A stretch of DNA of 64,000 nucleotides. Origin: Xanthobacter dioxanivorans. Lineage in GTDB: Bacteria; Pseudomonadota; Alphaproteobacteria; Rhizobiales; Xanthobacteraceae. The position numbers and the translations under genes were made by a program. This document shows, in pieces, positions 4,130 through 52,847 of this stretch. The stretch's first letter is position 1; the number at the start of each line of letters is the position of its first letter. The stretch spans positions 3,948,501-4,012,500 of the forward strand of contig NZ_CP063362.1 in NCBI RefSeq assembly GCF_016807805.1, written 5' to 3'. The notes under the pieces were generated by a model. The model ran no database searches. It saw nothing but the letters and a program-made list of their open reading frames with translations, and was not told where the DNA came from.

Positions 4130-4879
4130 ATGCTCGAAATCAAGAACCTGCACGCCCGCATCGGCGACAAAGAGATCCTGAAGGGCCTCGACCTCACCAT
4201 TCCCGATGGCGAGCTGCACGCCATCATGGGGCCGAACGGCTCCGGCAAGTCGACGCTCTCCTACGTCCTCGCCGGCAAGCCGGACTATGAGGTGACGGAC
4301 GGAACCGTCACCTTCAACGGCCGGGACCTGCTCGACCTTCCGCCGGATGCCCGCGCCGCGGCGGGGGTGTTCCTCGCCTTCCAGTATCCCATCGAGATCC
4401 CCGGCGTCGCCAACATGCAGTTCCTGCGTGCCGCCATGAACGCACAGAAGAAGGCGCGCGGCGAGGAGGAGATCTCCACCCCCGACTTCCTCAAGCTGGT
4501 GCGCGCGAAGGCCCCCGACCTCGGCATCTCCACCGAGATGCTCCGGCGCGGGGTGAACGTGGGCTTCTCCGGCGGCGAGAAGAAGCGCAACGAGATCCTG
4601 CAGATGGCGCTTCTGGAGCCGAAGCTCTGCATTCTCGACGAGACCGATTCCGGCCTCGACATCGACGCGCTCAAGGTGGTGGCGCAGGGGGTGAACGCGC
4701 TGCGCGCGCCGAACCGCTCCATGCTGGTCATCACCCACTACCAGCGCCTGCTCGACCATATCGTGCCGGACGTGGTGCACGTCATGCACAAGGGCCGCAT
4801 CGTGCGCACCGGCGGCCCCGAGCTGGCGCTGGAGCTGGAGGAATCCGGCTATGCGGCCTATGCCCAGGACGCGGCGTGA
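4130..4879 (+). CDS. sufC: Fe-S assembly ATPase SufC
   Basis: This 249-residue ABC-type ATPase drives conformational change in the SufBCD complex. The Walker A motif GPNGSGKST lies at about 34-42. The SufC-type signature GFSGGEKKRNEILQMA, in which EKKRNE replaces the usual QQRV form, is near 147-162, and Walker B LCILDETDSGLD follows near 166. The switch histidine is in VITHYQRLL. The stop codon overlaps the GTG at which sufD can start, so the two are probably translationally coupled. Confidence 0.96.
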   Translation: MLEIKNLHARIGDKEILKGLDLTIPDGELHAIMGPNGSGKSTLSYVLAGKPDYEVTDGTVTFNGRDLLDLPPDARAAAGVFLAFQYPIEIPGVANMQFLRAAMNAQKKARGEEEISTPDFLKLVRAKAPDLGISTEMLRRGVNVGFSGGEKKRNEILQMALLEPKLCILDETDSGLDIDALKVVAQGVNALRAPNRSMLVITHYQRLLDHIVPDVVHVMHKGRIVRTGGPELALELEESGYAAYAQDAA

Positions 4880-6215
4880 GCGCGGCCATGAACATCACCC
4901 TTCGACCGGCCCGCACCGCGGCCGAGGAAGCCATCGCCGCCACGCTCGCGGCGCAGCTTGAAAAGGAAGCCGGGCAGGGGCGCATCGGCGACCTGCGCCG
5001 CGACGCGCTGGAGGCGTTCCGCGCCCACGGCCTGCCGCACCGGCGGGTGGAGGAATGGAAATATACGGACCTGCGCGCGGCGGTGCGGGACTTTCCGGCG
5101 CTGGCCGGCCCCCCGACGCGGCGGCCCGCGCCGAGGCCGATGCCCGGGCCCTGCGCGTGCCCCATGCCGCGCGCATGCTGTTCGTCAGCGGGGTTCTGGC
5201 GCCCGGCGAATCCGATCTCGGGGCGCTGCCCGAGGGCGTCACCGCGCTGCCGCTGGCGAGCGCCATCGCGGCGGGCGATGCGCTGGCGGATCGCATCGGC
5301 GCGCTGGCGCCGGAGCGCTATGACGGGGCGTTCGCGCTCAATGCCGGCTTCCTCGGCGAAGGTCTGGTGCTGCGCGTCGCCGCCGGCACCCGGGTGGAAA
5401 AGCCGGTGCACCTCGCCCACGTCTTTCCCTCGGACGAGGCTTTCGCCGGCTTCACCCGCACCATCGTGGTGGTGGAGGAGGGCGCCGAGCTGACGCTGGT
5501 GGAGAGCTTCTCCGGCCGCGCCGGCGTCGCCTACCACGCGAACCACGCGGTTGAGCTGGTGGTGGAGGACACGGCGGTGGTCCATCTGGTCCGCCTCCAG
5601 GAAGAAGGCGAGGCCGCCCTGCATCTGTCCACGCTCATGGTGGAGCTGGGGCGGGGGTCGCGGCTCGACCTGTTCTCCCTGGCGCGCGGGGCGGGCCTGT
5701 CGCGCTATTCCGTCTTCGGCCGCTTCGCCGGCGCGGGGGCCACGGCCGGCATTCGCGGCGCCAGCCTGCTCAAGGATCGCCAGCACGGCGACACCACCTT
5801 GCTCATCGACCATGCGGTGGCGGGCTGCGAAAGCCGCGAGCTGTTCAAGACCGTGCTCGCCGACAGGGCGCGCGGCGTCTTCCAGGGCAAGATCGTGGTG
5901 CGTCGCGATGCCCAGAAGACGGATGGGCGCATGATGAGCCAGTCTCTGCTGCTGAGCGACGATGCGGAGATGGACAACAAGCCCGAGCTGGAGATCTTCG
6001 CCGACGACGTGCAGTGCGGCCATGGCGCCACCGCCGGCGCCCTGGACGACAAGATGCTGTTCTACCTGCGCTCGCGCGGCCTGCCCGAGAAGGAGGCCGA
6101 GAAGCTGCTGATCCAGGCCTTCGTGGGCGAGGCGGTGGAATATGTGGAGGACGAGGCGCTGCGCGACGTCCTCATGGACCGCATGATGGTGTGGCTGGAG
6201 CAACGCGCGGGGTGA
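4876..6215 (+). CDS. sufD: Fe-S assembly protein SufD, reading frame broken by a -1 shift at 5109-5114
   Basis: SufD is the partner of SufB in the SufBC2D scaffold. Its N-terminus reads in one frame from 4876 (GTG overlapping the sufC stop; ATG at 4888 is an alternative) through the conserved HRRVEEWKYTDLR motif to a run of six C at 5109-5114. The rest of SufD, starting PPDAAARAEADARA and running through DDVQCGHGAT and FYLRSRGLP to the stop at 6215, is in the -1 frame. One added C would give an uninterrupted protein of about 446 residues, normal for the family. Without it the upstream frame continues only to 5493 and gives a 205-residue product. A sequencing error is my preferred explanation because sufD is normally essential in this operon type; a real mutation or ribosomal slippage cannot be excluded. 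Confidence 0.85.
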
Positions 6216-50656: not shown

Positions 50657-51643
50657 GTGAGCCTGCCGGGGCAGAACGGGCGGGAGACGGATCCGGCGCC
50701 CGGCCCGTCCGATGAGCCATCATGCCCGGGACCGGCCGGAGGTGAGCCGAAGGGGCCGTCCGCGCCCGGTGAAGGACCGATCGGCAAGCGCCCGTCCGGG
50801 ACGGGTCCCCTCGGCATCGTCGCCGGGGGTGGCGCATTTCCCGCTGCCGTTGCCGACGCGGTCGTGGCCGAAGGGCGGGAGGTGCTGCTCTTCCTCATTC
50901 GCGGCTTCGCCGACCCGGCGCTGGAGCGCTATCCCCACCACTGGTTCCGCCTCGGCTCGCTGGGCTCGGTCACCGCGCTGGCGAAGGCGCGTGGGGTGAA
51001 GGACCTGGTCATGGTGGGCGCGCTCACGCGCCCACGGGTGTCAGACCTCGGCCTCGACTGGACCATGCTCCGCGTGCTGCCGCGCATCATCCGGCTGTTC
51101 CGGGGGGGCGACAATCATCTCCTGTCCGGCGTGCTGGGCCTGGTGGCCGAGCAGGGCTTCCACCTCATCGGCGCGCATGAGGCGGTGCCGCGCCTGCTCC
51201 TGCCGGAGGGCGTGCTGGGCGCCCTCGCGCCCACGGCGCAGGACCGGGCGGACATGGCGCGCGGGCTCGACCTGATCCGCACCCTCGGGCCGTTCGACGT
51301 GGGGCAGGGGGTGATCGTGGTCGACGGCTTCGTCGTGGCGGTGGAAGCGGCGGAAGGCACCGACCAGATGCTCGCGCGCTACGGCGAGATGCGCCGCACC
51401 GGCCGCCTGCGCATCCCCGCGCGGCGCGGCGTGCTGGTGAAGGCGCCGAAGCCGGGCCAGGACCGGCGCGTCGACCTGCCCTCCCTCGGTCCGGCCACGG
51501 TGGAGCGGGCGGCGGAAGCAGGGCTCGCGGGCATCGCCTTCGAGGCCGGCGGCGCCATCGTGCCGGATGCCCAGGCGCTGGGTTCTGCCGCCGACTCGGC
51601 TGGCCTGTTCGTGTTCGGCATGGGCCGGGGCGACGCGGCATGA
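50657..51643 (+). CDS. lpxI: UDP-2,3-diacylglucosamine diphosphatase LpxI
   Basis: This 328-residue protein is LpxI, the alphaproteobacterial enzyme making lipid X in place of LpxH. Family parts are GPLGIVAGGGAFPAAVADAV, HWFRLGSLGSVTALAKARGV, VKDLVMVGALTRPRVSDL, RGGDNHLLSGVLGLVAEQGF and RIPARRGVLVKAPKPGQDRR. The first about 48 residues are unusual: a low-complexity Gly/Pro-rich extension before the domain. Either the GTG at 50657 is right and this is a linker, or translation starts later. It lies three bases after lpxA and overlaps lpxB by ATGA. Confidence 0.93.
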   Translation: MSLPGQNGRETDPAPGPSDEPSCPGPAGGEPKGPSAPGEGPIGKRPSGTGPLGIVAGGGAFPAAVADAVVAEGREVLLFLIRGFADPALERYPHHWFRLGSLGSVTALAKARGVKDLVMVGALTRPRVSDLGLDWTMLRVLPRIIRLFRGGDNHLLSGVLGLVAEQGFHLIGAHEAVPRLLLPEGVLGALAPTAQDRADMARGLDLIRTLGPFDVGQGVIVVDGFVVAVEAAEGTDQMLARYGEMRRTGRLRIPARRGVLVKAPKPGQDRRVDLPSLGPATVERAAEAGLAGIAFEAGGAIVPDAQALGSAADSAGLFVFGMGRGDAA

Positions 51644-52847
51644 GTTCGGGGGCGCAGGTGCGCGGGGCGCCGGGCAAGCCGCTGCGCGTGTTCATGGTGG
51701 CGGGGGAGGAGTCCGGCGACCAACTCGGCGGCGCCCTGATGGAAACGCTGGCGGCGCAGGTGCCCGATATGGCGTTCCGTGGCGTCGGGGGCCGGCGCAT
51801 GACGGCGGCGGGGCTCGAAAGCCTCTTTCCCATGGACGACCTGACCGCCATCGGCATCGCCGCCGTGCTCGGCCGGCTGCCCATTCTCCTGCGCCGGCTG
51901 AAGCAGACGGTGGCGGCGGTCCTCGCGGATCCTCCCGATGTGCTGGTCCTGGTGGATGCGCCGGATTTCACCCACCGCGTCGCGGCGCGGGTGCGGGCGG
52001 CGAACCCGGACATTCCGATCGTGAAGTACGTCTCGCCCACCGTCTGGATCTGGCGGCCGGGGCGGGCGCCCGCCATGCGGCCCTATGTGGATGCGCTCCT
52101 CGCCTTGCTGCCGTTCGAGCCCGAGGTGCACCGCCGGCTGGGGGGCCGCCCACCTTCTATGTGGGTCATCCCCTCTTGGAGCGGCTGGACGCGTTGCGCC
52201 CGTCGCAGGCGGAAGCAGCGCGCCGGCGGGCGGAGCCGCCGCTCGTGCTGGTGCTGCCGGGCAGCCGCCGGCGCGAGATCGTGCGGCTGGGCCGGGATTT
52301 CGGCGCCGCGCTCGCCGAGGTGGGGCGCTCGCAGCCCATGGAACTCGTCCTGCCGACCCTGCCGCGCCTCGAGGCGCTGGTGCGGGAGACGGTCGCCGAC
52401 TGGCCGCTGAAGCCCCGCATCGTCACCTCGGAAGCCGAGAAGCTCGCGGCCTTCCGCGGCGCGCGGGCGGCGCTGGCGGCCTCGGGCACCGTCACGCTGG
52501 AGCTGGCGCTGGCGGGCATCCCGCACGTGGCCGCCTACCGCATCGGCTGGCTGGAGGCGCAGATCGGCCGCCGCGTGCTGCAGGGCACGACGGTGATCCT
52601 GGCGAATCTGGTGGCGGGGGAGAATGTGGTGCCGGAATTCCTGCAGGAATACTGCACCGTCCCGGCGCTGGTCGGCGCGCTCACGGGGCTGCTCGCCGAC
52701 ACGCCGGAGCGGGCGCGGCAGGAGGCGGCGTTCGCCCGCTTCGACGCCATCTTCGGCATCCGGGGGCCGAGCCCCAGCGCGCGCGCCGCCGAGGTGGTGC
52801 TGCACCTCGCCCGCACCGGGCGCCCGGGCATTCTGCCGGCGGCCTGA
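51640..52847 (+). CDS. lpxB: Lipid A disaccharide synthase LpxB, broken by a -1 shift at 52140-52145
   Basis: LpxB joins lipid X and UDP-2,3-diacylglucosamine. The N-terminal half is intact: VFMVAGEESGDQLGGALMET, FRGVGGRRMTAAGLESLFP, VDAPDFTHRVA and YVSPTVWIWRPGRAPAM. After EVHRRLGG the frame is lost at a run of six G (52140-52145), and the C-terminal half (PPTFYVGHPLLERLD, LVLPGSRRREI, ASGTVTLELALAGIPHVAAY) reads in the -1 frame to 52847. One more G gives about 402 residues, the normal size. Without it the upstream frame continues to 52410. Like sufD and lpxD this is probably a sequencing error. Confidence 0.88.

Follow-up and report, generated by a model that had tools for sequence, protein, structure and literature searches.

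Long-read bacterial assemblies are known to carry homopolymer-associated deletion errors, which Homopolish treats (PMC8011154) and which Kastor reports for homopolymers of two to eight bases, most of them after four to five (PMC12007338). Two other described systems resemble the locus considered here, namely programmed -1 ribosomal frameshifting of the dnaX type and recent pseudogenes in which the frame has been lost by a single base. The genus Xanthobacter comprises soil and water bacteria; in a 64,000-nucleotide stretch that the relatives of its LpxA and the matches to its LpxB assign to this genus, from Xanthobacter dioxanivorans (contig NZ_CP063362.1, positions 3,948,501 to 4,012,500; hereafter the window), the genes sufD, lpxD and lpxB are each interrupted by a frame change. 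These three frame losses are very probably single-base deletion errors of the assembly and not of the organism, whose cells probably carry all three genes intact. The likeness to long-read homopolymer errors covers single-base deletions at short homopolymers, a genome-wide distribution and the splitting of conserved genes; no difference was found in the roughly 7% of the present genome that was examined.

A codon-usage model, trained on the window and 400 kb of the same genome, was used to pick the coding frame along the window. Exactly three within-gene frame switches were found in this way (5108, 49224 and 52147). Each lies at a six-base C or G run and has the direction expected of a single missing base, and the frame shift is located in the run at all three sites (Table 1). 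This agrees with the first-pass annotation, which had reported a same-direction shift at six-base C/G runs in these three genes; its positions for the sufD and lpxB runs were correct, while that for the lpxD run (49215-49220) was wrong by 10. It had also noted that longer C/G runs remain in frame in four genes, among them one that it named fadE, and the model does hold the host genes of the runs at 7155-7161, 29521-29527, 51102-51108 and 61883-61890 in one frame, the first of these being the seven-base run of sufS that had been placed near 7145. The genes adjoining lpxD and lpxB, lpxA and other lpx genes, are likewise in frame by the model. Translated pieces of the split genes were searched with NCBIfam profiles, where the upstream piece of sufD alone gave no match. 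Local repeats examined at the runs gave no lead. An initial tblastn comparison with three congeners had been dropped in favour of the codon-usage model, as it was full of shadow-frame pairs typical of high G+C content.

Table 1. Pieces of the three interrupted genes and the homopolymer runs at their frame changes (window coordinates).
Feature	Position	Strand	Evidence
sufD upstream piece, frame 1	4888..5107	+	73/73 identical to P0248 residues 1-73; codon-model frame
C6 run at sufD frame change	5109..5114	+	codon model, alignment of relatives
sufD downstream piece	5112..6215	+	TIGR01981 sufD; 367/367 identical to P0248 residues 76-442
lpxD upstream piece	48269..49222	+	NF002060 positions 7-298 and TIGR01853 over 48296-49222
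C6 run at lpxD frame change	49225..49230	+	codon model, alignment of relatives
lpxD downstream piece	49225..49365	+	NF002060 positions 303-337; 41/46 identical to P0128 C-terminus
lpxB upstream piece	51640..52146	+	TIGR00215 positions 6-153; 165/165 identical to P0008
G6 run at lpxB frame change	52140..52145	+	codon model, alignment of relatives
lpxB downstream piece	52149..52847	+	TIGR00215 positions 162-381; 232/232 identical to P0008

Comparison with the orthologous loci of relatives, which had been proposed as a check, supports the missing base and agrees with the first-pass proposal that a run of seven would restore each gene. At the lpxB site all 18 loci, from 13 distinct genomes, were found to be one base longer than the window, and the same was observed at the lpxD site for the eight loci that reach it (8/8; 19 loci given). 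The sufD site is less uniform, with 6 of 11 loci aligning with a single gap, which falls in the window, and the remaining five being too divergent there. In most relatives that have the extra base at the three sites the run is broken by another base, and therefore a seven-base run is not general in the genus. The congeners read lpxB, lpxD and sufD in one open frame without the need for a shift.

Unbroken forms of two of the proteins exist in public data. P0008 is an LpxB of 402 amino acids, found with the second LpxB piece, that occurs on four contigs (the longest of 23,746 bases). It matches both pieces from the window at 100% identity and has a single residue between the two matched parts. 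A second LpxB, P0009, on a contig of 352,536 bases, matches the two pieces at 164/165 and 230/232 residues. In the same way P0248, a SufD of 442 amino acids found with the second SufD piece, occurs on seven contigs (the longest of 6,512 bases) and is identical to both pieces with two residues between. The contigs of P0008 and P0248 are distinct from the 6.28 Mb contig to which the window belongs; short-read sequencing of this strain, or of a sister strain, may be their source. For LpxD the best match in the protein search was 87% identical. Because no near-identical unbroken LpxD was among the matches listed, the case of lpxD leans on its relatives and on analogy.

The three genes had been described as essential, a label most apt for lpxB and lpxD. 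The genome has a single LpxB locus, split in two, whereas LpxB was found as one piece without stops in 35 other genomes (41 were searched including its own, five of them without a match); the N-terminal domain of LpxD occurs once in the genome. A second suf locus, in addition to that at 3106-6215 of the window, is present on the same chromosome (877083-879972; L029, L077), with both of its SufB/D cores in open frames. Of the 13 congeners, 11 likewise have two suf loci, with four SufB/D cores, and the other two have two cores. The indispensable genes are therefore reduced to two, with sufD uncertain.

The interruptions are not confined to the window. As an example, relA/spoT (L111:17396-19566) is split in this genome into pieces that match TIGR00691 at positions 1-366 and 368-685. 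The gene has an open frame of at least 748 amino acids in 12 of the 13 congeners and is truncated by contig ends in the remaining one. Its C4 run is one base short relative to 7/7 aligned congeners (from 12 input loci, with a search of one strand). The earlier description of the shifts as a phenomenon of six-base runs thus holds for the three sites of the window and is too narrow for the genome as a whole, where shifts also lie at or near shorter C/G runs such as this one.

For a wider survey, twenty 20-kb segments of the contig (400 kb) were combined with the window into a sample of 464 kb. The controls comprised 20 stretches each from the congeners G001 and G012, together with the window-syntenic regions of G002, G005 and G012, for a total of 1,031 kb from four congeners. 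Raw model calls were noisy, with 25 in 464 kb of the present genome, 8 in 400 kb of G001, 22 in 477 kb of G012 and 1 in 77 kb each of G002 and G005, and at this level the present genome (54 per Mb) was not separated from G012 (46 per Mb). When both flanking segments had to be at least 80 nucleotides long, the calls fell to 15 in the present genome, 5 each in G001 and G012, 1 in G002 and 0 in G005. A strict rule, which further required both open frames to overlap the switch by more than 60 nucleotides, left 11 calls in the present genome, 3 in G012 and none in G001, G002 or G005. The excess of 11 in 464 kb over 3 in 1,031 kb is significant (binomial p = 0.0003), as is that of the sampled stretches outside the window alone (9 in 400 kb, p = 0.001). 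It was retained when the shift penalty of the model was set to 8 (13 versus 4 strict calls) or to 14 (10 versus 1), although only one of the three window sites still passes at 14. The lpxD site fails the strict rule, as a stop lies just before its switch. Ten of the 11 strict calls in the present genome are in the one-base-short direction, and relA/spoT belongs to the strict set. The model places the sampled sites outside the window only roughly, and it was alignment that placed the relA/spoT site in a C/G run.

Twelve sampled candidates of the present genome passed the 80-nucleotide rule, and 11 pairs of pieces were scanned (L111:6089 was left out). In four pairs both pieces matched adjoining ranges of one Pfam family, namely Transketolase_C_1, FecCD, ABC_tran and BPD_transp_2, the second piece of the Transketolase_C_1 pair being marginally below the cut-off. 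The genes of these pairs encode a pyruvate dehydrogenase E1, a FecCD permease, an ABC ATPase and a permease for branched-chain amino acids. The relA/spoT pair behaves in the same way in NCBIfam. The remaining six scanned pairs had a family match on one side only or none. The control candidates under the same rule numbered 11, where five were scanned with Pfam (two with one piece only) and six were judged by eye to be pairs of neighbouring genes. The three strict cases of G012 were seen by eye to have proline-, alanine- or repeat-rich tails; the upstream L139 piece matched a family and none of the four other scanned pieces did (the downstream L149 piece was left out). A chromate transporter gene in the G001 control (L124:17504-18815), which fails the strict rule, may carry a true frame shift. 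In the present genome, an accessory gene for a pyruvate dehydrogenase E1 of AceE type (L099:3911-6576) was observed to be split as well, and since only the present genome and G004 among 14 genomes gave a strong match, a comparison of its site was unusable.

Alternatively, the strain could have suffered a real and recent loss by replication slippage at C/G runs, as might happen in a mutator lineage; LpxB and LpxD would then not function, and the second copy of SufD would take the place of the first. We consider such a loss very unlikely. Runs and deletions would be favoured by genuine slippage as well, and the second copy of sufD does exist, but the loss would have to strike many genes simultaneously, relA/spoT and those for two lipid A steps among them, while lpxA and the other adjoining lpx genes remain in frame. 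Lipopolysaccharide synthesis is essential in most Gram-negative bacteria (PMC12444477), although a few are described as able to live without the early lipid A enzymes, such as Acinetobacter baumannii ATCC 19606 (PMC4985137). The nonsynonymous (dN) and synonymous (dS) divergences of the lpxB and lpxD pieces from G012 and G005 (dN 0.00-0.13, dS 0.47-0.83) were found to be within the range of the neighbouring lpxA and fabZ (dN 0.04-0.10, dS 0.58-0.75). The second piece of sufD (dN 0.15-0.16, dS 0.40-0.49) has a ratio above that of its suf-cluster neighbours (dN 0.04-0.05, dS 0.31-0.40). No relaxed selection or decay was evident by dN/dS, a measure in which a very recent lesion would be invisible, and pseudogene decay was rejected as none is visible in the lpx pieces. 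The present genes thus differ from recent pseudogenes in that no relaxed selection was seen, in being conserved single-copy genes and in having identical unbroken LpxB and SufD proteins in public data, the last of which also speaks against a real loss.

The first-pass annotation had named slippage, as an unusual alternative, and a programmed or tolerated -1 slippage of the ribosome or of transcription at the six-base runs would give full-length proteins from the sequence as assembled. Relative to the upstream frame, the first base of all three runs is at codon position 3, which puts a formal X XXX XXZ heptamer in phase as in frameshifting of the dnaX type; the model classes the sufD and lpxD runs otherwise, as its switch precedes them. 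Six-base runs in this phase are nevertheless common in coding sequence, with 21/73 here, 17/73 in G001 and 19/72 in G012. For the stretch that follows the lpxB run, folding is somewhat better than for its shuffles (z -1.90, with 7 of 200 shuffles as good), while those behind the sufD (z 0.75) and lpxD (z 0.66) runs fold no better, pseudoknots being outside the folding model. Unlike the dnaX type, the present sites consist of C/G runs, are followed by no clear structure at two of the three, belong to genes that the congeners read in one open frame, and are accompanied by shifts at shorter runs such as the C4 run of relA/spoT. Programmed frameshifting was rejected because the heptamers are formal ones, the shift is not conserved in relatives and no clear structure was found, and we regard slippage as exceedingly improbable. 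Scarcely more credible is a strain in which numerous core genes have tolerated frame breaks, with real six-base runs and with enough full-length LpxD, LpxB and RelA/SpoT obtained by slippage, or else a life without lipid A.

Under-calling of homopolymers in the assembly had been put forward as the leading explanation, and it keeps that place. Single-base under-calling accounts together for the direction bias, the genome-wide spread, the undecayed state of the lpx pieces and the identical unbroken LpxB and SufD found elsewhere. In such a process, the consensus or base-calling of noisy long reads would under-count some C/G runs. In a genome of 68% G+C many genes contain such runs, and every base missed would make a gene seem to lie in two frames. 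The under-counting of short C/G runs would be only occasional. We infer the sequencing technology, and with it the presence of full-length runs in the cell's chromosome.

Several observations weigh against assembly error. Of the 11 strict calls, one has the opposite direction and at least one, that at L103:4442, may be false (its pieces had no match in the family scan), and some of the sampled calls are unverified. The 23S ribosomal RNA gene has no deletion relative to G005 over 2,894 aligned positions, and long C/G runs were observed not to be depleted overall compared with G001 and G012. P0008 and P0248 are of uncertain origin, and their match to the proteins of the window is read as one by likeness; no near-identical LpxD, broken or unbroken, was found among the matches listed. 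Furthermore, the support comes from assembled sequence, and the long-read origin of the record is itself a deduction.

Anyone who used this assembly to claim gene loss in the lipid A, iron-sulfur (Fe-S) or guanosine tetra- and pentaphosphate ((p)ppGpp) pathways would probably be mistaken. The strict rate of about 24 per Mb in 464 kb suggests that some 150 genes, as an order of magnitude, may be affected in the 6.65 Mb genome, as extrapolated from about 7% of it, and a completeness of 99.95% does not reveal the frame errors. The finding is an ordinary one that brings no new biology and most likely reflects a known fault of long-read assemblies. Judged by title, none of the papers listed on Xanthobacter complete genomes with frameshift deals with this genome, and the DNA pattern was looked for in viral contigs, where none was found. 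The genome consists of five contigs, and at 6.65 Mb it is larger than the 13 listed congeners (3.1-5.8 Mb, rounded).

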